Shown here piece after piece: positions 3,573 through 58,214 of a stretch of DNA of 59,713 nt. The notes below the pieces were generated by a model. The model had not been told where the DNA came from. It did not search any database and saw only the letters and a program-made list of their open reading frames with translations. The DNA lies in the IMG/VR virus record IMGVR_UViG_3300046665_000288, positions 1 to 59,713 of that record; one strand, 5' to 3'. Within the stretch, counting starts at the first letter, position 1. The number at the start of each line of letters is the position of its first letter. The position numbers were made by a program, and so were the translations under genes. This DNA is from a virus.

Positions 3573-4759
3573 TTCGCCTCCTGCGTCTTGCCTTGGGATG
3601 CGGACATGGCGGCGATGACCGATTGCTGTCCTTCCTCGTATGCCTGCCTTACTAGCGTGTGCAGGCGCTCTGGTTCTCGGTGCGCGAACACCAGCATGGA
3701 CTTACGCACGTCGGTTTCAATGGATACCCACCAGTCGATATAACTGCGCGCCGAGTCCTTCGCATCCAGCGCATCGCCTGCTTGCGCTGGAGCGGTGAGA
3801 CTGGCAGCGAACACTTTGCCGCAACACTGCATGTACTTCTCGTGCTCGGCGGCCAGCAGCGCGACGACGCCGTTGTAAGCGTCGAGCAATCCGCCGCTGC
3901 CATTGCAGTGCGGGCAGTTGCACGGGACCTCATAGGTATCCGGCCCGGCGCCTTCCATCATCACGCCTTCGCCAGAACCTTTGCATGCGGGGCAGAGCGC
4001 ATCCTCTTTAGCGGGCAGCGGTGCGCGGGCGAGGGCTGCGCGGAGGTCGGCGATCTCCTGCACCATGTACTTGCACATCAATGTGTGCGGCCAGAACGCC
4101 TCCTCTGAGCGAGGGTGGGCCTCGTAGATGTGCTCCTGCCATGTCTTGATCGGCGCAGCATCCCGGCTGGGTGCTGTTGGCCAGCCCATCCACTCGACGC
4201 CGCAGATGGTGCATCGCTGTTTGCCGTCCGCGCTGTAGACCTCATATGCGTGATAGCCCTCTCGGTCGCACTCGCTCGCGCTTGCCGTGGTGGCCTTGCT
4301 CTCCGCCTCGCATCCATCGCACAGCGGGTTGTGGCCGCGCTGGGGGCATGCGAAGTGGTGCGCGGCGCTTGTCGTGGTGGCCGCAGGGGTACCGTAACCG
4401 ATTACGGTACCATCGACGGCCGCTCCTGCCTGCTGTGTGGCCGGTGCCCGACGAGCGATCACAAATGCGTCATGGATCGCATTCTTGACGTGTTTCTGCG
4501 CCCATTCCTCTGCGAAGTAGGCACTGGCGAGGTCATCCAGTTCTTCATCGGTCAGGGTAGGTGCTTCGGGCGCGGCTTGCTGGGTAGCGCGGGCATCTTT
4601 CCAGCAGCCCCAATAATCGGTCAGAAATGGTTCGGCGTAACCGTCGCCGTCCCGAATTGCGATGATCTTCGCTTCCCAGCCAGAGCGCAGCGCCCACGCT
4701 TCAAACAGCGCCCGCTCGTCCGCCTGCTCGGCTACGCGCGGCATGTTCTGGTTATCCAT
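3569..4759 (-). CDS. Modular early protein with DnaJ-like zinc-finger pair
   Basis: 396 residues from the ATG at 4759 (MDNQNMPRVAEQADERALFE). AAAGGACAG precedes it, and it overlaps the upstream stop by eight bases; a reading extended to 4813 has no site. The region HFACPQRGHNPLCDGCE and, later, CPACKGSGEG ... CNCPHCNGSGG form CxxCxGxG zinc knuckles as in DnaJ. Helices DLRAALARAPLPAKE lie between. It resembles a chain of Ea22-like modules. Zinc binding is likely; the biological role is unknown. Confidence 0.66.
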   Translation of the reverse strand: MDNQNMPRVAEQADERALFEAWALRSGWEAKIIAIRDGDGYAEPFLTDYWGCWKDARATQQAAPEAPTLTDEELDDLASAYFAEEWAQKHVKNAIHDAFVIARRAPATQQAGAAVDGTVIGYGTPAATTTSAAHHFACPQRGHNPLCDGCEAESKATTASASECDREGYHAYEVYSADGKQRCTICGVEWMGWPTAPSRDAAPIKTWQEHIYEAHPRSEEAFWPHTLMCKYMVQEIADLRAALARAPLPAKEDALCPACKGSGEGVMMEGAGPDTYEVPCNCPHCNGSGGLLDAYNGVVALLAAEHEKYMQCCGKVFAASLTAPAQAGDALDAKDSARSYIDWWVSIETDVRKSMLVFAHREPERLHTLVRQAYEEGQQSVIAAMSASQGKTQEAK

Positions 4760-11453: not shown

Positions 11454-12203
11454 TCACAATCTGCCTGTCACAACCCGGCCGGGTTGATAGACGACTCGCC
11501 CGACTATGTCGCACTGCCCGCTACGCATGTTGATGGGCTTGTAGTCTGGGTTGAGGGAGTGCAGGTACCACTGACCGCCGCGGTTGATCAACTGCTTGAC
11601 GCACGCCTCACCATCAAAGTTCAAGGCGTACACCTCGCGGCTGACGGGGCGGCGATCGGCAGTGTTGATGATTACGACGTCGTCCTCAAACAACATCGGC
11701 TCCATGCTCGCACCGGAAACGCGCATGGCGAGCAGTTGGGCCGGTGAAAGGTTGTGCTTCTCGACGACAGCACGTGGCATTGGCATGCTTCCGCCTTCCT
11801 CGAGCACTGGCTCGGTCTCGAAGCCTGCCACGCCGGCATGCAGCTTGAGTTTGACGAATCGGATCGGAACCGTGTCGGGCTCGTCACCAACACGGATGGG
11901 TCGCGCCCCAGGGAAGAGTGTTGAGATATCGGGTGACACCGTAGAGGCAACAGGCTGCGCGCCCTGCATAGACTTCGCGATTGCTGCCGGCAGCCCTATG
12001 CCAGTAACCTTCGCGATCGTCATCAGTTGCTTGAGGTTTGGACTGTGTCGGAGGTTCTCCCACCCCGAAATATTCGCCTTCGTATAGCCGCGGTCATCAC
12101 CGAGCTCGAGCGCAAGCCTGGCGCCAAGGTCTTCCTGGGAGAGCCCGGCAGTCTTCCGAGCCTGGCGGATCCAGTCCGCTAAAAGTTGTTTTAGATCATC
12201 CAT
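11454..12203 (-). CDS. LexA/CI-like repressor with S24 self-cleavage domain
   Basis: 249 residues. N-terminus: XRE helix-turn-helix (ARKTAGLSQEDLGARLALEL ... ANISGWENLRHSPNLKQL). C-terminus: S24 peptidase with the serine in RVSGASMEP (Ser166), the lysine in GEACVKQL (Lys203) and a candidate Ala-Gly cleavage bond in KLHAGVAGFE (~126-127). Such proteins cleave themselves when RecA filaments form. The ATG at 12203 coincides with the expected transcription start of a TATACT -10 box (12210-12215), so the mRNA may be leaderless as for lambda cI. It is the second repressor of this prophage; its operators are probably 12226-12237 and 12271-12292. Confidence 0.9.
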   Translation of the reverse strand: MDDLKQLLADWIRQARKTAGLSQEDLGARLALELGDDRGYTKANISGWENLRHSPNLKQLMTIAKVTGIGLPAAIAKSMQGAQPVASTVSPDISTLFPGARPIRVGDEPDTVPIRFVKLKLHAGVAGFETEPVLEEGGSMPMPRAVVEKHNLSPAQLLAMRVSGASMEPMLFEDDVVIINTADRRPVSREVYALNFDGEACVKQLINRGGQWYLHSLNPDYKPINMRSGQCDIVGRVVYQPGRVVTGRL

Positions 12204-12209
12204 ACGAGC

Positions 12210-12239
12210 AGTATAGAAAGGTTGAGTACAAACGTACAG
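12210..12239 (-). promoter_or_regulatory. Leaderless promoter and operator of the S24 repressor
   Basis: Minus-strand -10 TATACT spans 12210-12215, seven bases from the ATG at 12203. The -35 region is poor and is covered by GTACAAACGTAC (12226-12237), an imperfect palindrome. This site shares GTA..AAC.TACAG with the palindrome 50 bp further on, suggesting an autoregulated pair. Confidence 0.55.
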
Positions 12240-12245
12240 AATTAC

Positions 12246-12292
12246 TTGACCTTGCTCAATGGGCAAATCTATACTGTATGAACATACAGTAT
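12246..12292 (+). promoter_or_regulatory. Plus-strand promoter overlapped by a perfect LexA-type box
   Basis: TTGACC (12246-12251), 18 bases, TATACT (12270-12275) is a good promoter reading right. Over its -10 lies a 22-bp perfect palindrome (12271-12292) whose core CTGT-ATGAACAT-ACAG fits the LexA consensus CTGT-N8-ACAG. The same DNA could be the S24 repressor's operator. The transcript runs antisense into the Arc-like gene; no convincing open frame follows AGGAG at 12296-12300 (15 codons only). Confidence 0.7.
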
Positions 12293-12323: not shown

Positions 12324-12608
12324 TCAGCGTTTGCGACGCGGTTCAAGGGCGTCAATGATGGTCTGTACCATCTGCTGGGTTTGTTTGATCTCGGCCTTAA
12401 GCTGCTTGTTCTCTTCGCTGAGTCGACGGGTTTGGGCGAGGATCGCGGCGAGTGAAGTGCCGCCGGCCATTGCTGTAAGACGATGGATAATCTCATCGTT
12501 CATCGAGTGCTGTTCGCGCTCCGCGGCTTCCTTGAGGTCGGCGTGCAGGTCGGCTGGCAGACGCATAGCAGTCTTGATGGGAGGCTTCTTGGGTGGCTGT
12601 TCTTTCAT
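12324..12608 (-). CDS. Arc-family ribbon-helix-helix DNA-binding protein
   Basis: 94 residues from MKEQPPKKPPIKTAMRLPAD. The ribbon-helix-helix unit is KTAMRLPADLHADLKEAAER and SMNDEIIHRLTAM, matching the Arc/Mnt family. The C-terminal half is a leucine-zipper-like coiled coil (SEENKQLKAEIKQTQQMVQT), so it should form dimers or tetramers. Start ATG 12608 has no clear ribosome site; an ATG at 12659 is an alternative. A 7-bp inverted repeat at 12649-12669 lies where an autoregulatory operator would be. Its target among the several switches here is unknown. Confidence 0.85.
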   Translation of the reverse strand: MKEQPPKKPPIKTAMRLPADLHADLKEAAEREQHSMNDEIIHRLTAMAGGTSLAAILAQTRRLSEENKQLKAEIKQTQQMVQTIIDALEPRRKR

Positions 12609-12648
12609 GCGCGCGATTCTTGCGCGTTTCGGAACAGCGGTGTTGTGA

Positions 12649-12669
12649 GTGCCATACAAACGATGGCAC
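12649..12669. promoter_or_regulatory. Inverted repeat upstream of the Arc-like gene
   Basis: GTGCCAT (12649-12655) and ATGGCAC (12663-12669) are perfect 7-bp arms separated by seven bases. The position just upstream of the Arc-family coding region suggests its own operator. The rest of 12670-12852 has no gene that I can support. Confidence 0.5.
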
Positions 12670-12852
12670 TATTCGCAAAGGATAGCGCCAAGTGACCTGG
12701 CGTTACAAGCTCCGGTCACATGGCAGTAGAGGGGCGCGCGACGATATGGTTACAGAAGGCAGAGCAATTGGGTGGTGAATGTGCCTCTGTTCGGCGAATG
12801 TAGGAATGATCCTACGCCATATAGTGGCCTAGATACTTGCAAAGGAATGAAG

Positions 12853-13050
12853 ATGCCAGACGAGATGATGCCGAAGTTGATCCTTGCGTCGGAAAATGAC
12901 AACGATGAGTTTCAGTTGACGCCGCAGGAGCGGCGCCTGGTGTCTAATTTCCGAGCCATGAAGCGTAGCGCGCAGTTTGTTTTTATCGAGATGTCCGAGA
13001 CATACCGGCGAACCACTCCAGCCGAGACCGTCAAGCTGCAGCTACTCTGA
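12853..13050 (+). CDS. Hypothetical protein, 65 residues, in the control region
   Basis: Starts MPDEMMPKLILASENDNDEF at the ATG at 12853, six bases after AAAGGA; an ATG at 12847 is too close to that site. It continues QLTPQERRLVSNFRAMKRSA, a helix pair found at the C-terminus of some phage repressor-associated proteins, and ends ETVKLQLL. It converges with the CI-like repressor gene with a nine-base overlap. The 'T..ER.LV..FR.M' element resembles the last helices of XRE regulators, so it may contact a repressor. That is inference. Confidence 0.6.
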   Translation: MPDEMMPKLILASENDNDEFQLTPQERRLVSNFRAMKRSAQFVFIEMSETYRRTTPAETVKLQLL

Positions 13051-13524
13051 CCGCCCAACAAACGAAGCATCGTTGTACTCCGCGGCAGCCTTGCAAGCGC
13101 CGTAGATCATCAGCTTGCCTTCTTCGCTTGAGCGACGGTACAGCTCGATAATCATTTTCTCTCGTGCGTTGAGCCGCTCGAGCGTCGTTTCGGACGACAG
13201 TGAGACATCTTCCATATAGTTGGCATCGCGCCCAACAGGCCGGCTACGAGGCCCATCGGTAATCGCGTTGTACTGCGCCGAGGGCTCAGCAACGCTCAGC
13301 ATATTTGGTTCGGCTTCTGTCGCATTGCCTTGGCCGTTTGCCAGCCAGTTCGGATTTACGTTCAATGCCGCGGCAATGTCGACGATACGGCGCGCACTGG
13401 ATCGAATGCCAGATTCCAGGTTTCCGATAGTGCTCTGAGTCACGCCACTTAGCTTCGCTAGAGCAGCTTGGGTAAGCCCTTTTTGTTCGCGGGCCCAGAT
13501 GAGCCGTTTTGCCAATGTATCCAT
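13042..13524 (-). CDS. CI-like repressor without a protease domain
   Basis: 160 residues from MDTLAKRLIWAREQKGLTQA. XRE helix-turn-helix ALAKLSGVTQSTIGNLESGI covers residues ~19-38. The C-terminal half ends in NAREKMIIELYRRSSEEGKL, a helical segment seen in short phage regulators, and carries none of the S24 Ser-Lys motifs. It is divergent from a Cro-like gene across a three-operator region, which marks it as the main lysogeny repressor. No ribosome site precedes the ATG at 13524, again suggesting leaderless translation. Lacking the peptidase, it should not be inactivated by direct RecA-stimulated self-cleavage; an antirepressor or a LexA-controlled factor would be needed. Confidence 0.84.
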   Translation of the reverse strand: MDTLAKRLIWAREQKGLTQAALAKLSGVTQSTIGNLESGIRSSARRIVDIAAALNVNPNWLANGQGNATEAEPNMLSVAEPSAQYNAITDGPRSRPVGRDANYMEDVSLSSETTLERLNAREKMIIELYRRSSEEGKLMIYGACKAAAEYNDASFVGRSE

Positions 13525-13585
13525 ATCACGAATGTAATACATAACACAATCACGTTGGTGTTGACGGTTAAAACACGAACGTGAT
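13525..13585. promoter_or_regulatory. OR: three operators at 23-24 bp spacing
   Basis: ATCACGAATGTAAT (13525-13538), ATCACGTTGGTGTT (13549-13562) and AACACGAACGTGAT (13572-13585) are versions of one 14-bp motif; centres are 24 and 23 bp apart. The third is identical to a site at PL (9925-9938). The first, weakest one abuts the repressor start codon, the third lies in PR. The design matches OR3-OR2-OR1 of lambda. Confidence 0.85.
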
Positions 13586-13588
13586 ATT
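13561..13588 (+). promoter_or_regulatory. PR, rightward early promoter
   Basis: TTGACG (13561-13566) and GATATT (13583-13588) are 16 bases apart; TATTGT (13585-13590, 18 bases) is an alternative -10. Transcription would begin about 13595-13597, at the ATG of the Cro-like gene, so this mRNA may also lack a leader. Two operators overlap the promoter. Confidence 0.75.
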
Positions 13589-13596
13589 GTTTGCCA

Positions 13597-13851
13597 ATGG
13601 ATACGCAAAAAATCACGTCGGACCTACTAAAGTCCGGACTTACTCAGCAAGAGCTGGCCGATCTGGTCCCATGCGGGCAATCGACGATTGCTGCGTATTT
13701 GGCGGGCACTCGTGGGTCGCGCCCTTCGAAATTCATCGGTGATCGACTCGAGGAGTTGCATGCCGAGCGCTGCGCAGGCGCTATCGGCGACCCGCCGAAG
13801 CGCCGCGCAACCGATCCCAAGGATGCGACCGTAGACCGCCCGAGCAGCTGA
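13597..13851 (+). CDS. Cro/YdaS-like repressor
   Basis: 84 residues: MDTQKITSDLLKSGLTQQEL then ADLVPCGQSTIAAYLAGTRG, a helix-turn-helix with the GLTQQELA and QSTIAAYL helices. It continues with a disordered basic tail. Divergent from the CI-like gene and first under PR, it fits Cro (or YdaS in Rac-like prophages). Its start codon has no ribosome site and lies at the probable transcription start. It likely represses the cI promoter by binding the site next to it (13525-13538). Confidence 0.82.
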   Translation: MDTQKITSDLLKSGLTQQELADLVPCGQSTIAAYLAGTRGSRPSKFIGDRLEELHAERCAGAIGDPPKRRATDPKDATVDRPSS

Positions 13852-42529: not shown

Positions 42530-42955
42530 ATGGCACAGAAAATCAAGCTGGGCAATCGCCCGAAATCGTTCGCGCGCACCATCACCTTCGCCATGCTGGA
42601 AGGCGGGGAGGGGCGAATGGAAGTGACATACAAATACCGCAGCCGCAAGGAACTGGCCAAACTGACGGACGAGGTCCAGGCCGCCGCTCAGGCGCAGCAC
42701 GAGGCGGATATCGAGGCGATCAAGGCGAAGGCCGAGAAGAAGGAGCCGATCGAGCACTTGAAGCAGGTCGACCTGCTGGACCGCGACATCTCGCTGCAGG
42801 TGGATTACCTGATGCAGGTAGTCGAAGGCTGGGACCTGGATGAGAAATTCGATCGTTCCGCCGTCGAGCAGCTCGCCGACGAGGTGCCGGCCGCGATCAC
42901 GGCGGCCATCGAAACGTACCGCAAAGCGATCAACGAAGGCCGCGTGGGAAACTGA
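42530..42955 (+). CDS. Tail assembly chaperone (gpG-like)
   Basis: 141 residues. MAQKIKLGNRPKSFARTITF ... MEVTYKYRSRKELAKLTDEV ... LMQVVEGWDLDEKFDRSAVE is the usual tail chaperone profile. The last codons GTG GGA AAC TGA contain a slippery G GGA AAC heptamer in phase (42946-42952). A -1 shift there reads through to the next frame, giving a 245-residue G-T fusion as in lambda. Coats and folds the tape measure. Confidence 0.9.
   Translation: MAQKIKLGNRPKSFARTITFAMLEGGEGRMEVTYKYRSRKELAKLTDEVQAAAQAQHEADIEAIKAKAEKKEPIEHLKQVDLLDRDISLQVDYLMQVVEGWDLDEKFDRSAVEQLADEVPAAITAAIETYRKAINEGRVGN
42946..42952 (+). other. Programmed -1 ribosomal frameshift site
   Basis: GGGAAAC in zero-frame phase G GGA AAC, directly before the TGA at 42953-42955. 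After a -1 slip reading continues CTG ACG GCG GCG GCC CGG GCC ATG TAC and enters the 42973 frame without a stop. Lambda uses GGGAAAG in the same place. Confidence 0.9.
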
Positions 42956-42972: not shown

Positions 42973-43266
42973 ATGTACACCCCGCCGCCAAGTGAGCATG
43001 AGTTGGCGGCGTCGGGCATGACTGCAGAGGACCTTGAGTGTGACCCCGTTGAGATATGGCCCGAAAATCAGCAGGCTTACTTCCTGTTCGCAGATCTCAG
43101 GACGCAGTGGCGAATGGGCATGGGGGGCGCGTGCGGCTTGGACTACATGGTGCTGTACGCGAAGCTGGATCGGATGGGGCTAACACGCGAAGAAACCGAC
43201 GAGCTCGAGCAGGACGTCAGGGCAATGGAGTTTGAGGCCCTATCGGCGATGACCGAGCGTGAGTGA
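42973..43266 (+). CDS. gpT-like part of the tail chaperone fusion (DUF1799)
   Basis: 97 residues from the internal ATG, but probably made only as the frameshift extension from 42952. PPSEHELAASGMTAEDLECD then NQQAYFLFADLRTQWRMGMG with GLDYMVLYAKLDRMGLTREE matches DUF1799, the usual T half in this phage group. The frame from 42952 to 42973 has no stop. It has no ribosome site of its own. Binds the tail tube and tape measure during tail assembly. Confidence 0.88.
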   Translation: MYTPPPSEHELAASGMTAEDLECDPVEIWPENQQAYFLFADLRTQWRMGMGGACGLDYMVLYAKLDRMGLTREETDELEQDVRAMEFEALSAMTERE

Positions 43267-43306
43267 TGCGGCAGAAACGCCACCCCATCAGCAGGTCAAC
43301 ACTAAG

Positions 43307-43873
43307 TCAACTGTCTGAGGTCCTTTTTGTGACCTTGCGTGTGATGCGCGGTTGCGCCGGTTTGGCGCTGCTGGTGATAGTTGCTCTAGCCAGAGCAGCT
43401 AATCGCTGCACCACCCATGGGGGCGACCACGAGCTGCCCTGAATGCGTTCTGTAACGATTGCCGCGTCTGGCCGAACGATACCCTCGGAAGCTTGCATAG
43501 CTGTTCGAAACTCTTCCATCGTCGCTCCAGGAAGTATTGGAGCATACAAAACCTGAGGTGCATCTGGATTCAGACCAGCCACGAAGACCTTGGCCAACAT
43601 CTCATCGTACGCGACCCCTTGCTGTTCGGCGAGGTCCTTGATAAGTGTTGTGAGATACCAAGTCAGTTCGCTTTCTGGCGGATGGGGAGGTGCCGTCCTG
43701 GGCTCGGAGGCTGGCGGGCCGTCAAGTTTAAGGGCCCATTCTAGGCGCTGGACGATCTCAGCATTCATGCTGCGACCGTTCTGTTTGGCTAGCTCGGCTA
43801 TGCGGTCACGCATGCCCTCTGGTAGCCGTACGACGAACTGTTCTGCGGTGCGGCTCGGTGATTTTGTGCTCAT
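43307..43873 (-). CDS. Mnt/Arc-family repressor of the immI-like cassette
   Basis: 188 residues. [20 protein letters not shown] then [20 protein letters not shown] is a ribbon-helix-helix unit as in Arc and Mnt. The rest is a longer domain ([20 protein letters not shown] ... [20 protein letters not shown]) that Mnt does not have. It is divergent from a second Arc-like gene over operators with two GCAAAGTGCGA copies. The order and orientation match mnt of P22, which keeps the antirepressor off in lysogens. Confidence 0.8.
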
Positions 43874-43888
43874 TTCCGCAACGTACTA

Positions 43889-43947
43889 GCAAAGTGCGAT
43901 ATTTTCAATGATATGTAGTTGCGATCATCGCAAAGTGCGAGTATAGT
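43889..43947 (+). promoter_or_regulatory. Divergent operator/promoter of the immI-like cassette
   Basis: GCAAAGTGCGA occurs at 43889-43899 and 43930-43940, 41 bp apart (about four helical turns). The rightward promoter TTGCGA (43919-43924), 17 bases, TATAGT (43942-43947) overlaps the second copy. So a repressor bound there would shut the arc-like/antirepressor transcript. The first copy is near the start of the Mnt-like gene. Confidence 0.8.
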
Positions 43948-43979
43948 TTGGGACATTGACACAGCGAAAGGAGGTAAGC

Positions 43980-44144
43980 ATGGCTCAGGACACGACGCCC
44001 GTTCAGATTCAAATCCGTACGAGTGCTGAAAACAAAGATTGGCTGAAGCGAGCAGCTGATGCGCAAGAGCGCTCGGTGAACTGGCTCATCCATAAGATGT
44101 TCACGGACGCGCGGCTGGCTGAACAGGCTAAGCAGAATGCGTAG
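43980..44144 (+). CDS. Arc-like ribbon-helix-helix repressor, 54 residues
   Basis: AQDTTPVQIQIRTSAENKDW then LKRAADAQERSVNWLIHKMF: a compact ribbon-helix-helix, close in size to P22 Arc (53 residues). AAAGGAGG precedes the ATG at 43980. It is first on the rightward transcript and, as in P22, would damp transcription of the antirepressor after the first burst. Confidence 0.86.
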   Translation: MAQDTTPVQIQIRTSAENKDWLKRAADAQERSVNWLIHKMFTDARLAEQAKQNA

Positions 44145-44151
44145 ACGGAAA

Positions 44152-44219
44152 GAAAAAAGCCCTGATCGGCTTGGCGGCAGGATCAGGGCTCTTGATGAAA
44201 CCACTCTCAAATGGAATCG
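44152..44219 (-). ncRNA. sar-like antisense RNA (about 67 nt)
   Basis: On the minus strand TTGACT (44249-44254), 17 bases, TAGGAT (44226-44231) is a good promoter; start near 44219. The transcript runs to a terminator made of AGCCCTGATC (44181-44190 complement), its partner at 44158-44167 and six U from the A run 44153-44158. The product would be about 67 nt and antisense to the region just before the ATG at 44222, including its ribosome site. P22 sar RNA has the same place between arc and ant, the same sense, about the same size (69 nt). No sequence identity is claimed. Confidence 0.72.
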
Positions 44220-44221
44220 AA

Positions 44222-44530
44222 ATGAATCCTACTTCTAAACAGGAAAAGAGTCAACAAGAGTCAGCGGGGCGCCGCGGCTTCTTGCGTAAATTTGGCGCTG
44301 CGGCTGGCGCTGTGATCGTGACAGCGGGCGTGGTGCACGCAGCGCCGGCCGTTTCGGCCCGCAGGGACGAGCTCGAAGCCCTCACGCCGCAACAGCGCTT
44401 GCTGCTGGCTCAGTTGAACGAGATGACGGACCAGGCGCAAAAGTTCATCTACGACATGGCGGAGTTCAACGCTCGTACGTTCCCGCGTGAGTTCCCGAAC
44501 GTGACCGTGATGCCGCGAGGTTCGGTATGA
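44222..44530 (+). CDS. Tat-signal protein inside the antirepressor operon
   Basis: 102 residues. GRRGFLRKFGAAAGAVIVTA then GVVHAAPA is a twin-arginine signal (RRxFL) with a cleavage site near APA. The mature part is short and helical (LTPQQRLLLAQLNEMTDQAQ). Export through Tat of a folded small protein from an antirepressor operon is unusual. Start ATG 44222 lies over the sar-like promoter; an ATG at 44195 is possible. Its stop overlaps the antirepressor start, so its translation should control that gene. Confidence 0.72.
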   Translation: MNPTSKQEKSQQESAGRRGFLRKFGAAAGAVIVTAGVVHAAPAVSARRDELEALTPQQRLLLAQLNEMTDQAQKFIYDMAEFNARTFPREFPNVTVMPRGSV

Positions 44531-45174
44531 GCACGATAGTCAAGGGCGTGCCTGTGATGTCGAGCGTTGAGCTGGTTCGGGTTATTAACGCATTGCGAAA
44601 ACGCGAGAAGAAGAAGCTGCTGCGGCATGACAACTTCCTCGCGAAGATCGAGAAGCACCCGGGAATTGACGCTCCTAAATTTTTAGGAGCGCAAAAATAC
44701 GGCAACGGGAACACGCGTAAGGTTTACTTCCTCCCGAAGCGTGAGTGCGAGCTCATGGTCATGAGTGAGTCGGAGGTAGTGCAAACGCGCGTTTATGACC
44801 GACTTACGTTGCTGGAGGGCCAGGCGGAAGAGCATAAGCTGATCAGGAAGGACAGCAAATCTTCCAACAGAAACATGAACGGCATGCTGGAGATGACGCG
44901 AGAGGACTTGGGTAAGTCCTGTGCGGCGCATCACTACAGCAACGAAGCGCTGATGATTAATGAGATCGTCTTTGGGGTCCGGAAGGCCATCGATCGCGAC
45001 TCGCTGAGCGGAACCGACCTCAACAGGCTCATCAAGATGGAGATGCGAAACACTCTCCTCATTGCGAAAGAAAAGCCATACGCTGAGCGAAAGGAGATCC
45101 TGAAGCAGTACCATGAGCAGCTACTGTTGACTCCACCGCCGAAGACCAAACTTCTGAAGGGGCGCCACGTATGA
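44527..45174 (+). CDS. Rha-type antirepressor of the immI-like cassette
   Basis: 215 residues. VMSSVELVRVINALRKREKK ... LLRHDNFLAKIEKHPGIDAP ... RKVYFLPKRECELMVMSESE is the Rha regulatory domain; the rest is helical (RAIDRDSLSGTDLNRLIKME). In P22 the Ant protein at this place inactivates the main repressor. GC content is lower than in the flanking tail genes, pointing to separate origin. ATGA-coupled to the Tat-signal gene. Confidence 0.82.
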   Translation: MSTIVKGVPVMSSVELVRVINALRKREKKKLLRHDNFLAKIEKHPGIDAPKFLGAQKYGNGNTRKVYFLPKRECELMVMSESEVVQTRVYDRLTLLEGQAEEHKLIRKDSKSSNRNMNGMLEMTREDLGKSCAAHHYSNEALMINEIVFGVRKAIDRDSLSGTDLNRLIKMEMRNTLLIAKEKPYAERKEILKQYHEQLLLTPPPKTKLLKGRHV

Positions 45175-45611
45175 CGGCTAAAGCTCAAGTCGAGAAGCTA
45201 TCGGCGCTTGGCGGAATTTTTGAAGAAGCCGTTGATTTAGCTGCGCTGATGTTGTGGTACGAAGGATTGCTTTCCCTTATGGTCGGTTACTACACGCAGC
45301 TCCATATTCTCGAGCATGGCGAAGACTCGGACCCTAAGATGCGCCAACTTCGAGTACTGACCGAAGACCACGTATTGATGGCCGGGCGATTTCACATAAT
45401 GCAGGCGGGAAAGCTTGCATACGTGTGCGAGTCGGCCGGATTTGAAGGGGATAAGCATTCGGAGTTGCTGAATAGGGTCATGGCGGCCGCCCGGAAGCGA
45501 GCGGAGCAGAACAATGAACCGAGCCTAGGCGAGATCAAGGACTTTTGGGCTGCAGCTGGGAAGCCATGGCATTCCCCAACGTTTTTGCCCGAAGGGACGG
45601 TGCTCCAATGA
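45171..45611 (+). CDS. Hypothetical protein, 146 residues, after the antirepressor
   Basis: EEAVDLAALMLWYEGLLSLM ... QLRVLTEDHVLMAGRFHIMQ ... RVMAAARKRAEQNNEPSLGE. Helical, soluble, no motif. Start overlaps the antirepressor stop, so it is part of the same unit and may assist the antirepressor. Unknown family. Confidence 0.62.
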   Translation: MTAKAQVEKLSALGGIFEEAVDLAALMLWYEGLLSLMVGYYTQLHILEHGEDSDPKMRQLRVLTEDHVLMAGRFHIMQAGKLAYVCESAGFEGDKHSELLNRVMAAARKRAEQNNEPSLGEIKDFWAAAGKPWHSPTFLPEGTVLQ

Positions 45612-45700
45612 TCGAACCTCAGAAGGCCTACTGCTCTGATCGTAAGCCGCTAGCAGCATGCGCTACTATTGTCGGACCTCAACAGCAGCCGGGAGATAAC

Positions 45701-45913
45701 ATGGAATACGATGAATCAAGTCTGGTCGAGCGAGCGCGGATCGCATTCGCCAAAGCTAGCGGGATGGATCAGCCAAGCAATGACAGTGATGTCCAGGATG
45801 TGGACGGCATCCCGTACGCAGTCCTTCGCAACGTGAACGGCATCCTGGCTGTCTACAGCTACAACGGCACGAGCCTCAATCGCGTGCACGAGTGGCCCGA
45901 TGAGCTGAACTGA
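45701..45913 (+). CDS. Small acidic protein, 70 residues
   Basis: MEYDESSLVERARIAFAKAS ... DVQDVDGIPYAVLRNVNGIL ... SYNGTSLNRVHEWPDELN. GGGAGA precedes ATG 45701. The frame could begin at ATG 45608 overlapping the gene before it; the 31 extra residues are low in complexity. Last gene before a hairpin. Function unknown. Confidence 0.6.
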   Translation: MEYDESSLVERARIAFAKASGMDQPSNDSDVQDVDGIPYAVLRNVNGILAVYSYNGTSLNRVHEWPDELN

Positions 45914-45931
45914 GCAACCTGAGTCAAGCGC

Positions 45932-45955
45932 GCCGCCCCTAGAAATACGGGCGGC
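45932..45955 (+). terminator. Hairpin ending the immI-like operon
   Basis: GCCGCCC (45932-45938) and GGGCGGC (45949-45955) form a 7-bp stem with a ten-base loop; TATTTGC follows. Weak intrinsic terminator. Confidence 0.55.
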
Positions 45956-46001
45956 TATTTGCATTGCGGTAATATATTCGCTCTTTCACCCAGGAGGAGC
46001 G

Positions 46002-46349
46002 ATGATGAAACGCTTGTTTGGACTATGGCTAGTCGTACTCTCGGCCATGGCAGCCGCTCAGGATCATCCATGTCAAGAGCCAGAGTATTTCTTTATGAAA
46101 TCTGCGAGCAAGCCGGAGCTGCGAGACGCATATTGCTCGCTCACTCAGCGGGCCGAGAGCAACGAGCGTTCGCGCCAGATCACACAGGACGGCATTAAGA
46201 AGAAGCGAGAACTTCAATTGGATACCGCAAGTGATCGAGATCTTGAGATAAGGGAGGTGAGAGCGGCGACATCCTGCAGAGTTGCGGCTGCTTCCGTGGC
46301 CGGCGCGCTTGAGCGCCGATTCAAGAGTAAGCCACCTTCTTGTAATTAA
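46002..46349 (+). CDS. Secreted/periplasmic protein, 115 residues
   Basis: MMKRLFGLWLVVLSAMAAAQ is a Sec signal peptide with cleavage near AAAQD. The mature part has two cysteine pairs (HPCQEPEY, AYCSLTQR, TSCRVAA, PPSCN), so disulfides are likely. GGAGGAG precedes the ATG. It sits between the immI-like operon and the tape measure and is followed by a terminator, as a self-contained moron. Role unknown. Confidence 0.68.
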   Translation: MMKRLFGLWLVVLSAMAAAQDHPCQEPEYFFMKSASKPELRDAYCSLTQRAESNERSRQITQDGIKKKRELQLDTASDRDLEIREVRAATSCRVAAASVAGALERRFKSKPPSCN

Positions 46350-46368
46350 ATTTTTTGTACCTTCACAG

Positions 46369-46394
46369 AACCAGCCTTCGGGCTGGTTTTTTTA
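46369..46394 (+). terminator. Terminator before the tape measure gene
   Basis: AACCAGCC (46369-46376), TTCG, GGCTGGTT (46381-46388), T run to 46393. Closely similar in context to 41694-41717. It closes the inserted cassette; the tape measure must be read by antitermination or its own start. Confidence 0.9.
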
Positions 46395-46405
46395 TGGGCG
46401 AACGA

Positions 46406-49400
46406 ATGTCTTCGATTACGAATACAGCTGAAATTCTCGTCGTTGGCGACGCGTCCGGTGTAGAAGAGGGCTTTCGCCCCGCTATCCAGGCCGCAGAGCG
46501 TGTTGGCCAAGCTATCGCTGGCGTCGGCGCGGAGGCCTCCACGTCGGCCCGAAACGTCGAGGGCGCGCAGGGCCGTATGGCGGCCGCCGTTCAGCGCTCC
46601 GCTTCGCAAATTGAAAGCGCCGAACGCAACCTCATCAACTCGGCCCAGCGCATGGCGGCGGCGACCGAAGCGGGCTCGCGTTCTGGCAGCGCTTTCGTCG
46701 AATCGATGGCGCGTCTTCGCGGAGTCGATCCATCGGGCGCGCTGGCACCGTTCCTAGCGCAACTGCGCGCGGTGGAGCAGGCTCAGGAGCGCGTCGCTCA
46801 GGCGGCCCGGGATGAGGCTGAGGCCCAGGCGTTGGCGGCACGTATGCAGTCTAGCCGCGATTCGTTCGTCGAAAGCCTGCAACAGCAAGCCGAGGCGATC
46901 GGCCGCACCCGCGCTGAACTTCTGGAGCTGCGCGCGGCACAGCTCGGCGTATCTACGCAGGCCGCGCCGTTTATCGCCAGGCTTCGTGAAGCAGAGGGCG
47001 GACTGAATCGCACCGGCGCCTCTGCTGCGCAGGTCGCGAACGCAATGAGGCAAGTGCCCGCGCAATTAAGCGACGTCGCCGTCCAGCTCGCCGGCGGCCA
47101 GTCGCCCCTGATGGTGCTGATGCAGCAGGGCAGCCAGCTGCGCGACTCGTTCGGCAGCATTCCCGCCGCCCTTCGCGGCGTTGGCTCGTCGCTGCTGGCG
47201 CTAGTCAATCCGATGAGTGTTGCTGCAGTTGTTCTCGGTGGGATCGCTTACGCGTACAACAAGGGATCTGCTGAAGCTTCGGCATTCAGCCGCGCGATCA
47301 TCAACTCTGGTAACGCTGCTGGCACAAGCCGAGGTCAACTGGCTGATTACGCACGTGAGATTGGCAAGACTGCCGGCACTCAGGGCGAAGCGGCTGCGGC
47401 GCTTGCCGCACTTACCGAAGCTGGCAGAGTTGGATCTGAAAATCTTAAGCAGTTTGCCGCATCTGCTGTCGGTGCTCAAAATGTGTTGGGTCGGAAGATC
47501 GAAGACACCGTCTCGGAGTTCTCCGAGCTCGGGAAGTCACCGCTGGCAACGCTCGACAAGCTGAACGACCGGTATCACTTCTTGACGTCGGCAGTCTATG
47601 CACAGGTCAAGGCCCTTGAGGACCAAGGCCGGACGTCCGAAGCGGCGAATATCGCCCAGCAGGCCTACGCCGATGGCATCGATAAACAGCGGCAAAAGGT
47701 TCTCGACAGCCTGACGGACTGGGAGCGTGGCTGGCTTCGTATCAAGGGCGCGACTTCCGGGGCGATCGATGCAGTGCTGAACATCGGCCGCGGCCCGACG
47801 AACCAGCAAAAGATCGACTCGTTGCTGAACGTCCGCGACACGCTCGAGGCAAACCAAGCCCGCGCGAAGGAGACGCGCGACATGCGCGCTGCGGATGCGT
47901 ACCAGAAGCTGCTCGACCAGAACAAGGACGAGATTAACGCGCTCCGGTCGAAAGAGGATGCCACGAAAGCGGTTTCGAAGGCCGAGGCTGATGCGGCCGA
48001 CGCGACCGCGGCCCGCAACACATGGCTCCTCGACAGCGACAAGTACCTTGATCGTGCAACCCAGGCCGAGCGAGACCTGGCGAAGGCGCGCAACGAGGGC
48101 GCAAAGGCCTTCGCGGATCAAGACCCCGTCACGCGTGAAAAGCTGATCAATGATCGTCTGATCGAGATCCGCAAGCAGTATTCGGACGTCTTCAACACGA
48201 CCGTCGAATCGAACATCGCGGCGCTCCAACGTCGAGGCGCCGTTGAGGAACTGCTGGCGCAGCGTGCACTAGCTCGGATCCAGACGCAGCGCGCGATCGG
48301 CAACATTAGCGAGGAGCAGGCAATTAACCAGTCTGCGAACGCAGAGCTTGCAATCCTTGATCAGCATATCGCGGCTAAGCGCGCTGAGCTCGCACTGGTC
48401 CAGAAGAAAATCTACGCCACCCCCGCTCAGAAAGATAAAGACGTAAAGGACAAAGAGGGCGAGCTTGCCGAGCTTCGAGTCCAGCGCGGTTCGCGGGAGG
48501 AAAAGCAGCAAAACGACCTCATCGAACTGCAGGATCGCCGCCGTCAAAGCACGGAAGACCTGTACAAAACCGGCATTGTTGGCGCCACGGCCGAGCTCAA
48601 CAGCCTGACAGCACAGACTGAAGCCCAGTTCCAGGCGAACCAAGCCATTGGCCTTAGTACTCGTCAGGTAGCCGAGCTCGAATCGGCACGTCTCTACAGC
48701 ACCGCCGCACTGAAGGACGAGACCGCAGCAGGATTGGCAGCGCTGCCAGGTGGGCAGGCACTGGCACAGGTCTACCGGGATCAGGCTCAACAAATGCGCG
48801 ACCTTGCGGACGCCAGGGTGCGTGGCGCCGTTAAGCAGGAGATCTACGAAAAGCCATTGCAAGACCTGAACGCAATGGTCGACATTCTCGGCGCGCTCGA
48901 CGAGGCGGCACAGTCGGCGGCTCAAGGTATGGCTAGCGCCTTTGGCAGTGTCGGCCAGGCGATTGGCGGCATGACAACGGCGTTGACTGGGTACGAGCGG
49001 ACGCAGGCGGCAATCGCTGCTCAACTCGCAAATGCTACCCGCGATGCGCATGGGGACCCTGCAAAGATTCAGCGCGCAAACCAGATGGCGGCAGAGGCGT
49101 CTGCGCAGGCCCAGATCAAGAGCTATGGCGACATGGCGTCGGCCGCGAAGGGATTCTTCGATCAGAATTCCAAAGGGTATGCCGTACTGAGCGGCGTGGA
49201 GAAAGCGTACCGCGCCGCCGAGATGGTGATGGCCCTGGAATCGATGGCGAAGAAAATCTTCTTCAAAGAGACCGAGGTTGCAGCAACCACGGCGTTGAAT
49301 GCAACGAAGCTGACCGGCGAGGCTGCCACAACAGCGGCATCTACCGGACTGGCCGCAACTGAGGCCAGCGCATGGGGCGTTACTGCGGTCGTGAAGGCGC

Positions 49401-51865
49401 TGGCCTCGTTGCCGTTCCCTATGAATCTGGCGGCCGGTGCCGCTACTCTGGCGGCGGTCGTTGCCGTGGGCGCGAAGATGTTCGGTGGCGTGGGCGGCGG
49501 AAGTGTGAGCCTGTCCCAACAGCGGCAGCAGGACCAAGGCGCTGGGTCTGTCCTGGGCGACAGCGACGCGAAGTCGGAGTCGATCAGGAACGCGCTCGAT
49601 GCAGTCGAGAAGAACACGTATCAAGACTTGGCGGTCAGCAGCAGCATGCTCGCGACGCTGCGCAGCATCGACAACAACATCCGTAGCTTTGCCAGTCAGC
49701 TGGTGCGCAGCACTGACATCACCGACCCTGATGTTGGAAATCTGAATTCCAACAACGGCTTTGGCAAGTCAGTCGCATCGTGGGCAGCCGGTGGCGTCGT
49801 TATTGGATCGTTGCTCGCAAAGATTCCCGCTCTCGGAAACATCTTCGGGAAGGTAGGAACTTCAATCTTCGGCGGGAAGCAGAGCGTTGAGGACTCGGGC
49901 TTCAAGATGGATGCTGCGAGCTTGGCGGCCATTCTGGGCAATGGCGCACACGCTTTCCAGTTTGCGGACATCAAGACGTCTGGCGGCTGGTTCCGCAGTG
50001 ACAAGACGAGTGAGCAGACGACGCCGCTTAGTGAGGCCGCCAATCAGCAGTTCACGTCGATTATCAAGTCGTTGGCGGACAGCGTGAAAAGCGCCGGTGA
50101 TCTGCTGGGCATCTCGGGCGACGATTTCACCAATAAGCTGAATAGCTTCGTGGTCGACATCGGCGAAGTGAGCCTGAAGGGCTTGAAGGGCGATGATCTG
50201 CAAAAGGCAGTCGAGTCGGTCTTCGCCAAGCTCGGGGACCAGATGGCGCAGTTTGCCGTCGACGGTCTGGGTCCGTTTCAGCAGGTCGGAGAGGGCTATC
50301 TCGAAACGCTGACGCGCATCGCAGCCGAATATCAAACCATTGACGTGGTCTTCCAGTCGTTCGGCAAGACTTTCGGAGAGGTAGGGCTATCTTCGATCGA
50401 GGCTCGTGACCGGCTCGTGCAGCTGGCCGGCGGGCTTGACAAGTTCACCAGTCAGGGCGAGTACTTCCTGCAGAATTTCTTCACCGAGCAGGAGCAGGCG
50501 GCAGCGCTCAAGGGTCGAATCAACCCGACATTGGCGAAATACGGCCTGTCGACTGATGGTGATGACGCATCGAAGATGTTCCGCAACCTCGTCGTTGGAT
50601 TAGACACTACAAAGGAAGCGGGCGCCGCGGCATATGCCGAGCTGATGTCCATCGCACCAGCTTTCAAAGCGGTCGTTGACTCCAATCAGGATGCGCTTGA
50701 TGAACGGAAAGAACTGCAGGACCAGCTCGACGAGCTGACCATGTCCTCGACTCAGTTGCTGGCCAAGCAGCGCGATGCGCTGCACGAGAGCAATCGGGCA
50801 CTGTTCGACCAAGTGCAGGCCCTCAAGGCTGTAAAGGACTCGGCTTCGACACTGCTCGGCGGTGTGGATGACGCGTTCTCGGCGCTTCAGAAAGTGGCGG
50901 CGCGTGAAAAGACTGCGGTGCAAGCGAGCGTCACGGCGCAAACAGCGGCGGTCGCGAAGCTGCAGACGCTGTCGCAGTCTCTGCGTAGCACTTTGGACAG
51001 TCTGAAGTCTCCGGATCAAAAGGCTGCCGAGCGCGTAACCGCTCAGGCCCAGATCCGCGCAGCCTTGGCGATCGCGAAAGCAGGTGGCGTGCTGCCGACG
51101 GCGGACAGCCTGAAGTCTGCACTGAGCGCGGTCGCGCAAGATGCGTCCAACCAGTTCAGCAGCTACGCGGACTATCTGCGGGATCTGTACCAGACCCAGA
51201 ACGACCTCTCGCAACTGGCTGACATTACGGATAACTCGCTTTCAGTCGAGCAGCAGTCGCTCGACGCATTGCAGGCACAGCTGACTCGTCTGGATGACAT
51301 GGTAGCCCAGGGCCAGGAGCAGATCGACGTGCTGAAAGGCCAGTCGATAGCAACACTGACCTTGGCTCAGGCGATGTCCGGTCTGCAAACCGCGATCACG
51401 GGCGCGCAGGCGAATCCGATCGTCGGCGCTACGTCCAGCATTGCGAACATGTACCAGCAGCTGCTTGGCCGTCCAGCCGATCAGGCGGGGCTTGAGTACT
51501 GGCAGAACGCCATCGCTGGCGGGTCCACGCTGGACTCGATCCGCGAAGCGTTCATGAAATCGGCTGAGTACAAGGGCCTGCATCCGTTCGCGGTCGGTAC
51601 GAACTCCGTTCCGGAGGACATGCCGGCGTTCATCCATAAAGGTGAGCGAGTCATTCCCGCGGCGGACAACCGCGCGCTCATGGCGAGGCTGGCCAACCCA
51701 TCGGGCAATAACGAGGCGCTTGCCACGGAGATTCGGGCGCTTCGCGAGACCGTCGCAAAGCAACAGGCGGCGCTTGATCGCATTGCGAGCAACACGAAGG
51801 AGCATAAAGACATGTTCGAGCAATCGACAGGTGGTGGCGGCCCGATGCTGGTGGAGGTGACCTGA
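46406..51865 (+). CDS. Tail tape measure protein
   Basis: 1819 residues from MSSITNTAEILVVGDASGVE; ATG 46394 is an alternative. TMP_2 domain in the first 400 residues (MRQVPAQLSDVAVQLAGGQS, PLMVLMQQGSQLRDSFG, SAVYAQVKALEDQGRTSEAA). Long coiled coils follow, then hydrophobic helices (SLPFPMNLAAGAATLAAVVA). Near residues 1678-1725 is a DUF4214-like block (MYQQLLGRPADQAGLEYWQN). At about 1.5 Angstrom per residue the tail would be roughly 250-290 nm, about twice lambda's. Confidence 0.94.
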   Translation: MSSITNTAEILVVGDASGVEEGFRPAIQAAERVGQAIAGVGAEASTSARNVEGAQGRMAAAVQRSASQIESAERNLINSAQRMAAATEAGSRSGSAFVESMARLRGVDPSGALAPFLAQLRAVEQAQERVAQAARDEAEAQALAARMQSSRDSFVESLQQQAEAIGRTRAELLELRAAQLGVSTQAAPFIARLREAEGGLNRTGASAAQVANAMRQVPAQLSDVAVQLAGGQSPLMVLMQQGSQLRDSFGSIPAALRGVGSSLLALVNPMSVAAVVLGGIAYAYNKGSAEASAFSRAIINSGNAAGTSRGQLADYAREIGKTAGTQGEAAAALAALTEAGRVGSENLKQFAASAVGAQNVLGRKIEDTVSEFSELGKSPLATLDKLNDRYHFLTSAVYAQVKALEDQGRTSEAANIAQQAYADGIDKQRQKVLDSLTDWERGWLRIKGATSGAIDAVLNIGRGPTNQQKIDSLLNVRDTLEANQARAKETRDMRAADAYQKLLDQNKDEINALRSKEDATKAVSKAEADAADATAARNTWLLDSDKYLDRATQAERDLAKARNEGAKAFADQDPVTREKLINDRLIEIRKQYSDVFNTTVESNIAALQRRGAVEELLAQRALARIQTQRAIGNISEEQAINQSANAELAILDQHIAAKRAELALVQKKIYATPAQKDKDVKDKEGELAELRVQRGSREEKQQNDLIELQDRRRQSTEDLYKTGIVGATAELNSLTAQTEAQFQANQAIGLSTRQVAELESARLYSTAALKDETAAGLAALPGGQALAQVYRDQAQQMRDLADARVRGAVKQEIYEKPLQDLNAMVDILGALDEAAQSAAQGMASAFGSVGQAIGGMTTALTGYERTQAAIAAQLANATRDAHGDPAKIQRANQMAAEASAQAQIKSYGDMASAAKGFFDQNSKGYAVLSGVEKAYRAAEMVMALESMAKKIFFKETEVAATTALNATKLTGEAATTAASTGLAATEASAWGVTAVVKALASLPFPMNLAAGAATLAAVVAVGAKMFGGVGGGSVSLSQQRQQDQGAGSVLGDSDAKSESIRNALDAVEKNTYQDLAVSSSMLATLRSIDNNIRSFASQLVRSTDITDPDVGNLNSNNGFGKSVASWAAGGVVIGSLLAKIPALGNIFGKVGTSIFGGKQSVEDSGFKMDAASLAAILGNGAHAFQFADIKTSGGWFRSDKTSEQTTPLSEAANQQFTSIIKSLADSVKSAGDLLGISGDDFTNKLNSFVVDIGEVSLKGLKGDDLQKAVESVFAKLGDQMAQFAVDGLGPFQQVGEGYLETLTRIAAEYQTIDVVFQSFGKTFGEVGLSSIEARDRLVQLAGGLDKFTSQGEYFLQNFFTEQEQAAALKGRINPTLAKYGLSTDGDDASKMFRNLVVGLDTTKEAGAAAYAELMSIAPAFKAVVDSNQDALDERKELQDQLDELTMSSTQLLAKQRDALHESNRALFDQVQALKAVKDSASTLLGGVDDAFSALQKVAAREKTAVQASVTAQTAAVAKLQTLSQSLRSTLDSLKSPDQKAAERVTAQAQIRAALAIAKAGGVLPTADSLKSALSAVAQDASNQFSSYADYLRDLYQTQNDLSQLADITDNSLSVEQQSLDALQAQLTRLDDMVAQGQEQIDVLKGQSIATLTLAQAMSGLQTAITGAQANPIVGATSSIANMYQQLLGRPADQAGLEYWQNAIAGGSTLDSIREAFMKSAEYKGLHPFAVGTNSVPEDMPAFIHKGERVIPAADNRALMARLANPSGNNEALATEIRALRETVAKQQAALDRIASNTKEHKDMFEQSTGGGGPMLVEVT

Positions 51866-58167: not shown

Positions 58168-58214
58168 TTGACGTTGTGTTCGCGCACACTGATATACTGT
58201 TTAAATGTACAGTA
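58168..58214 (+). promoter_or_regulatory. LexA-type SOS box over a promoter near the integrase
   Basis: TACTGTTTAAATGTACAGTA (58195-58214) has CTGT-N8-ACAG with matching flanks, a near-ideal proteobacterial LexA box. TTGACG (58168-58173) and TATACT (58193-58198; 19 bases) or TGATAT (58190-58195; 16 bases) form the promoter. LexA binding would cover the -10 and the start site. Confidence 0.8.

Follow-up and report, generated by a model that had tools for sequence, protein, structure and literature searches.

A probable P22 immI-like antirepressor switch in a variable slot ahead of the tape-measure gene of a viral genome record

The IMG/VR virus record IMGVR_UViG_3300046665_000288, from a bacterial virus of soil (59,713 bases; the whole stretch is referred to here as the window), carries, between the genes for a DUF1799 tail protein and the tape-measure protein, a cassette that is probably a moron operating on the same principle as immunity I (immI), a switch of phage P22. 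From DUF1799 to the tape measure, the gene series comprises a Mnt-like repressor, a divergent Arc-like repressor, a 102-amino-acid (aa) protein, an antirepressor-type protein, and proteins of 146, 70, and 115 aa (Table 1). The initial annotation had proposed an immI-like cassette inserted as a unit, and this proposal is borne out by relatives with nothing at the site, by others with a related cassette there, by conservation of a sar-like element, and by an operator in the promoter spacer. The gene order, the operator in the promoter spacer, the antisense element and its conservation, the insertion into a variable slot, and the exchange of parts can be read from the sequence itself, and we infer that each repressor binds DNA and that the RNA is expressed, as well as the activity and target of the antirepressor and the timing of events.

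The placement of the cassette at 43267 to about 45945, as an insert between DUF1799 and the tape measure, holds when related loci (given here by their L numbers) are aligned. Related contigs were gathered with the tail assembly chaperone as bait (n = 21). A comparison with phages lacking the insert and a search for such cassettes between the same two genes in relatives had been suggested, and both kinds exist. The slot is nearly empty in L015 and L020, where about 25 bp and 47 bp, respectively, lie between the DUF1799 stop codon and the tape-measure match, and the 115-aa gene alone occupies it in four loci (L004, L009, L010, and L016). Related cassettes fill the same slot in L011, L012, L017, and L019, and other cargo fills it in further loci. 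The chaperone and tape-measure genes had been called normally adjacent, and in two phage isolates, VarioGold and Medea1, the tape measure directly follows DUF1799. At the right junction, the window sequence GGGCGGCTATTTGC runs on as in L009, where it stands directly after DUF1799. Of the extent first given for the cassette (43267 to 46394), the left border stands, and the right border moves to about 45945, where the insert relative to L009 ends; judged by the same alignments, the 115-aa gene (46002 to 46349) is part of the slot and not of the cassette. The G+C content is 0.55 in the cassette versus 0.61 to 0.62 in its flanks.

Cassettes of this kind are not confined to one tail operon. Three contigs whose tail genes are unrelated, L023, L024, and L027, have similar ones 5' of the tape measure, a relative stands among the virion genes of a Herminiimonas sp. 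CN prophage, and the DUF1799-tape measure slot of L089 (1354 to 8531) holds two immI-like cassettes with convergent antirepressor operons facing each other, one of which carries a homologue of P22 Ant (2e-63). Relatives in Herminiimonas and Massilia genomes, and the Variovorax phage VarioGold, fit a betaproteobacterial window phage.

The divergent Mnt-like and Arc-like repressors named in the initial annotation are both supported. The Mnt-like protein scores 68.3 bits against the Pfam family Arc (PF03869; gathering score, 20.4; E value, 5.1e-19), is 48 to 56% identical to the Mnt proteins of L011, L017, L023, L024, and L026, and has a ribbon-helix-helix (RHH) domain similar to that of P22 Mnt (41% identity over 37 aa). 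Its best solved-structure match is AmrZ (3qoq), and its predicted structure, with a predicted local distance difference test score (pLDDT) of 44, was not used. The Arc-like protein is weak by family (Pfam TacA1/RHH_5; E values of 0.001 to 0.008) and gains its support from relatives, with 56% identity to the L011 Arc and 89% to the one in L027. When genomes were scanned with the Mnt alignment, matches beyond Herminiimonas sp. CN and Massilia eurypsychrophila were to the RHH domain and were set aside; they were mostly from Pseudomonas and are probably AmrZ (not checked one by one).

The gap between mnt and arc contains the putative operators. The 59.7 kb contain just two exact copies of GCAAAGTGCGA, which are 41 bp apart and both in this gap, and the second copy lies between the -35 (TTGCGA) and -10 (TATAGT) elements of the predicted rightward promoter, as expected from the earlier claim of paired operators over a promoter. 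In related cassettes and in P22, likewise, an operator that is palindromic or repeated overlaps or adjoins the -35/-10 elements of the rightward promoter, mostly in the spacer, where O-arc of P22 also lies. The operator sequences of relatives vary by group: ACCACGGTGGT in L012, L017, L023, and L024, GTCACGGTGAC in L011, CCAACTCGG in L026, and CCTTCAATTTGAAGG in L019. P22 Mnt pairs the recognition strand RDDPHFNFRMP with the operator GTCCACGGTGGAC, the L017 group pairs REDPQMKLRLP with ACCACGGTGGT, and cassettes with the Mnt strand R(E/D)DP have the operator core CCACGGTGG, the same as that of P22 Mnt. Across 42 cassettes, operators resemble each other more where the Mnt recognition strands do, also after correction for the remainder of the RHH domain (partial Mantel r, 0.38; permutation p, 2e-4), in a test that was run on related sequences and can be anticonservative. 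The strand/operator correlation is support, not proof, for such a pairing. The initial annotation also held that the cassette has its own promoters and ends with terminators; a terminator stands on the right side, and none was found left of mnt.

The strongest new evidence for the immI-like reading is the antisense element. An antisense RNA gene had been suggested at this place, and an element with a terminator and a leftward promoter-like site, from which such an RNA is predicted, indeed follows arc. The corresponding element was found in nine cassettes, is 73 to 75 nucleotides (nt) long, and has a hairpin with a U-run on the antisense side. A leftward TTG-17-TAG (-35/-10 with 17-nt spacing) is kept in eight of the nine, within diverged coding sequence, and the four cassettes that were folded have two hairpins, as in P22 sar. 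Changes on both sides were seen in 5 of 12 stem pairs, a number reached by 15 of 500 shuffles. Position, length, fold, promoter, and covariation agree with a putative RNA of the sar type, with its transcription a prediction. A covariance model built from the nine elements, R1, found unseen elements in the expected place and on the expected strand in L099, L085, L093, and L087 (E values of 0.009 to 0.09) and in a Klebsiella phage, L194 (E value of 0.003). The Rfam sar model, RF00262, marks L093, L099, and L085 at the R1 coordinates (E values of 0.007 to 0.025; 31 to 33 bits, below the gathering score of 43). Using simple rules, an antisense terminator was detected after arc in 9 of 34 unseen cassettes, compared with 5.8% of random windows (p = 1e-4). 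The antisense hairpins of L023, L012, and L050, otherwise diverged, have in common with the window (44168 to 44180) the loop CCGCCAA, perhaps a kissing-loop contact.

Besides the limit on the Mantel test given above, several results weigh against reading the cassette as immI-like. RF00262 had no match in the window at E values up to 5, and a sar-like element went undetected in many of the other cassettes with divergent RHH genes; it is common without being universal. Pairwise BLAST detected no relation between the Arc-like protein and P22 Arc, and the antirepressor has no detectable sequence relation to P22 Ant. Promoter-like and terminator-like signals in the region occur at about chance frequency (2 versus 1.6 and 4 versus 3.7, respectively), and it is only their position and conservation, not their counts, that make them convincing. 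R1 is likewise not specific by score and matches generic terminators, and exact position carries the argument. A set of 399 genomes drawn from the same order as Herminiimonas sp. CN gave weak R1 matches that were considered as new cassettes and rejected as terminators, as none of 29 nontraining loci had an RHH/antirepressor context.

Alternatively, the hairpin after arc could merely stop antisense read-through as a terminator, or attenuate the rightward mRNA, with no RNA gene at all: the hairpin dominates the R1 scores, ordinary terminators elsewhere match the model, and promoter-like counts stay at the chance level. We regard this alternative as distinctly unlikely. Against it stand a U-run on the antisense side, a constant distance of 73 to 75 nt to the next start codon, and a leftward -35/-10 pair that eight of the nine cassettes keep at fixed spacing within coding sequence that has diverged. 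The layout is also the same as that of annotated P22, where sar runs leftward between arc and ant and its promoter is inside ant.

The Rha antirepressor of the initial annotation was confirmed in part. The protein is Rha/KilAC-like by PHROG matches and by fold, with a score against the Pfam Rha family (PF09669, Phage_pRha) of 13.4 bits, below the cutoff of 29.9 (the relative in L026 reaches 21.4 bits). Its predicted structure (mean pLDDT, 75) matches viral KilAC/antirepressor models and, weakly, DdrC, and no close relatives turned up when viral contigs were scanned. Among cassettes, antirepressor heads are swapped, with Rha, AntA, ORF6N, and KilA-N versions present. Overlaps of the ATGA type join the 102-aa, antirepressor, and 146-aa genes. 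The proposed mnt-arc-sar-ant series is right in order and strands, except that the 102-aa gene stands between the antisense RNA and the antirepressor. The 102-aa protein has a twin-arginine-like (Tat-like) start, RRGFLRKFGAAAGAVIVTAG, that scores below threshold with TAT models; its gene family is present in most related cassettes, and Tat-like small genes occupy the same place in L024, L019, and L043. The idea that this protein is a free copy of the repressor C-terminal domain was dropped, as the two have only a look-alike motif (hhalign probability of <1%).

TABLE 1. Features of the slot between the tail assembly chaperone and tape-measure genes
Feature	Position	Strand	Evidence
Tail assembly chaperone (Phage_TAC_4), left flank	42530..42955	+	Pfam PF08748, 1.6e-29
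DUF1799 tail protein; stop codon is left border of insert	42973..43266	+	Pfam PF08809, 1.5e-28
Inserted cassette, right border approximate	43267..45945	.	Comparison with L009, L010, L016, L015, L020
Mnt-like repressor: N-terminal RHH and extra C-terminal domain without assigned function	43307..43873	-	Pfam PF03869 Arc
Putative operator copy 1, GCAAAGTGCGA	43889..43899	+	Identical in L027
Predicted rightward promoter (Pant-like), TTGCGA-17-TATAGT	43919..43947	+	Position kept in related cassettes
Putative operator copy 2, palindrome TCGCAAAGTGCGA in promoter spacer	43928..43940	+	Sequence
Arc-like RHH repressor, first gene of rightward operon	43980..44144	+	Weak family matches; relatives in L011, L027
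Predicted sar-like antisense RNA, ~66-73 nt, over ribosome-binding site of next gene	44149..44221	-	Fold z = -4.05
Predicted intrinsic terminator of antisense RNA, directly after arc	44155..44193	-	13-nt arms, 92% complementary; compensatory changes
102-aa small protein, twin-arginine-like signal; overlaps antirepressor start (ATGA)	44222..44530	+	Below-threshold TAT matches
Predicted leftward promoter (Psar-like), TTGACT-17-TAGGAT, inside next gene	44226..44254	-	Sequence
Antirepressor, Rha/KilAC type	44527..45174	+	PHROG 2657, 2e-14; PHROG 63, 5e-8 (regulator/anti-repressor)
146-aa protein, overlaps antirepressor stop (ATGA)	45171..45611	+	No convincing family match
70-aa protein, function not assigned	45701..45913	+	Also in cassettes of L023 (67%), L024 (62%)
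115-aa secreted-type protein, signal-peptide-like start	46002..46349	+	In L004, L009, L010, L016 without cassette
Strong intrinsic terminator immediately 5' of tape-measure start	46367..46391	+	-18.2 kcal/mol, z -3.9
Tape-measure protein, right flank	46406..51865	+	N-terminal homology to L004-L022

Cotranscription of the 102-aa and 146-aa proteins with the antirepressor, implied by the ATGA overlaps, would also suit a cargo module, in which the regulators serve only to silence the Tat-like, 146-aa, and 70-aa cargo in the lysogen and the Rha-like protein is a host-directed regulator. Rha, KilAC, and AntA proteins have varied roles, and the slot does hold other nonregulatory cargo, such as the addiction module of L003, the P63C gene of L191, and secreted-type proteins. 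This alternative seems unlikely, given that, of all parts of the operon, an antirepressor-type gene is the one most often shared, with other cargo varying, and that the same architecture serves an antirepressor in P22.

Read as an immI-like switch, on the analogy of P22 (PMC2629481; PMC11016777), the cassette would work as follows; the bistable behavior named in the initial annotation is likewise a proposal. In a lysogen, the leftward Mnt-like repressor would bind the palindromic operators and keep the rightward promoter off, and no antirepressor would be made. Upon infection, before the Mnt-like protein builds up, the rightward promoter would fire and give a burst of antirepressor, with one rightward mRNA encoding the Arc-like protein, the small Tat-like protein, and the antirepressor. 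The Arc-like protein would next turn off its own promoter. The sar-like RNA would block translation of the first downstream gene, encoding the 102-aa protein, and through the ATGA start/stop overlap also that of the antirepressor; because the Tat-like gene stands between the antisense RNA and the antirepressor, this gene would be the direct target of the RNA, with the antirepressor reached via translational coupling. The antirepressor would inactivate a phage repressor, either the phage's own or that of a coresident prophage. Its target could be the XRE repressor encoded at 13042 to 13608, the S24-type repressor encoded at 11454 to 12266, or a foreign prophage repressor, as for Gifsy antirepressors.

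The first of these, the main repressor of the window phage, is without an S24 domain and therefore should not be SOS-cleavable. The second repressor in the window is of the S24 type and is encoded on the minus strand; a LexA-type palindrome, CTGTATGAACATACAG, lies at 12274 to 12289, just upstream of its gene, and another LexA-like site is at 58197. SOS control of the cassette was considered and rejected, as no CTG-N10-CAG site lies inside it. Beside the main repressor, a second member of the 102-aa family, lacking the Tat signal (12847 to 13050, plus strand), is divergent from another Arc-like RHH gene (12324 to 12659, minus strand), and a 102-aa-family member beside the repressor is conserved in L184 and L186. 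Co-inheritance of the cassette with the main repressor was also considered and not upheld: no related cassette was detected in the 3.3-kb stretches beside DUF1799 of two contigs with a 79% identical repressor, one of which has a P63C gene there.

The contents of the slot elsewhere are diverse. It holds a gene for an IrrE/ImmA-like peptidase and one for a membrane protein in L019 (6880 to 7386), an addiction module antidote and its partner in L003 (6774 to 7365), and a P63C-domain gene in L191 (120 to 1103). In L008 (6767 to 6810) and L021 (1356 to 1401), it holds a bidirectional terminator-like hairpin with GCCCTGA arms and a small open reading frame; this hairpin resembles a sar-like terminator, stands without any repressor genes, and is possibly a remnant. 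In the near-empty slot of L015, a strong terminator directly 5' of the tape measure persists (4168 to 4215).

With a strong terminator just 5' of the tape measure both in the window and in near-empty L015, the cassette could be thought mainly to tune tape-measure expression through its promoters and terminators, with control of the antirepressor secondary. For P22, it has been proposed that the ant moron plays a part in tailspike levels (PMC2629481), which is in line with such tuning. We nevertheless hold it to be highly improbable. Late transcription must read through a terminator in this position, and late antitermination would presumably do so; the terminator is also kept in phages without the cassette, and the cassette is therefore not needed for it.

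If the cassette is an immI-like switch, the full immI layout, including a conserved sar-like element, occurs in a recurrent moron slot of siphophage contigs whose relatives are betaproteobacterial prophages and phages. P22 immI is a textbook switch that has been studied almost only in P22-like phages, and a single case would become a family. A limited search of the open-access literature found no paper on sar-like RNAs outside P22-like phages or on strand/operator pairing. As a broader and tentative possibility, immI may be a second-immunity module that is widespread among temperate phages and can be exchanged between them, in which the RHH repressor and its operators diversify jointly (giving a readable strand-to-operator code and heteroimmune types), one antirepressor head can replace another, the sar-type RNA is retained, and the first gene under antisense control encodes, in some versions, a small protein targeted to the membrane or the Tat pathway. 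Such a small protein could link the state of the envelope to antirepressor synthesis. Strand-to-operator pairing leads to direct predictions for DNA binding, and antirepressor-repressor pairs, the evolution of operator specificity, and the spread of second-immunity types via the slot can be tested now.

Among known systems, P22 immI, which controls the antirepressor and affects lysogeny frequency (PMC11016777), is the closest in layout. Shared features are the order and strands of mnt-arc-sar-ant, two RHH repressors, an operator in the Pant spacer, and, as a prediction for the window, a two-hairpin antisense RNA of about 70 nt that directly follows arc and whose promoter is inside the next gene. 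The initial annotation had taken the tail-operon setting as a contrast with P22. That contrast does not hold, as immI of P22 is also among virion genes and the ant moron, an insert in the late operon of P22-like phages, is variable (PMC2629481); location in a late operon, with content that varies between relatives, is common to both. Unlike P22, the window has a Rha/KilAC-type antirepressor that is not homologous to Ant, a Tat-like small gene between the sar-like RNA and the antirepressor, a predicted antisense RNA that covers the start of 44222 to 44530 and not directly that of the antirepressor, a Mnt-like protein with an extra C-terminal domain, a different putative operator (GCAAAGTGCGA), and no mnt terminator found; its slot is chaperone/tape measure, and that of P22 is 16/9. 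The cassette shares the P22 immI repressor family and probably the RNA ancestry. Because of the unrelated antirepressor, the Tat-like gene, and the extra Mnt domain, it is not filed as a strict member of P22 immI, although it probably works like one.

Three other systems share parts of this design. Salmonella phage SPN3UB and Klebsiella phage ST11-VIM1phi8.1 have, on the stretch from the major tail protein region to the tape measure, divergent Arc-like genes and an anti-repressor, which likewise goes against the presumed contrast in setting. The Klebsiella phage has a sar-like match after arc, and a model search gave none in SPN3UB. Both differ from the window in being enterobacterial phages with other tail genes and no 102-aa-type gene annotated between arc and ant. 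The antirepressors of Gifsy and Fels phages are small proteins controlled by LexA or by a phage repressor (Lemire et al. 2011, PMC3121763); as in the window, they are encoded outside the main immunity region and may act on own or foreign repressors, whereas the window cassette is without a LexA-type site (CTG-N10-CAG). Finally, AmrZ of Pseudomonas, an Arc-type RHH protein, is nearly identical to the Mnt-like protein in the RHH strand and helix start, but it is a chromosomal regulator with no antirepressor operon.

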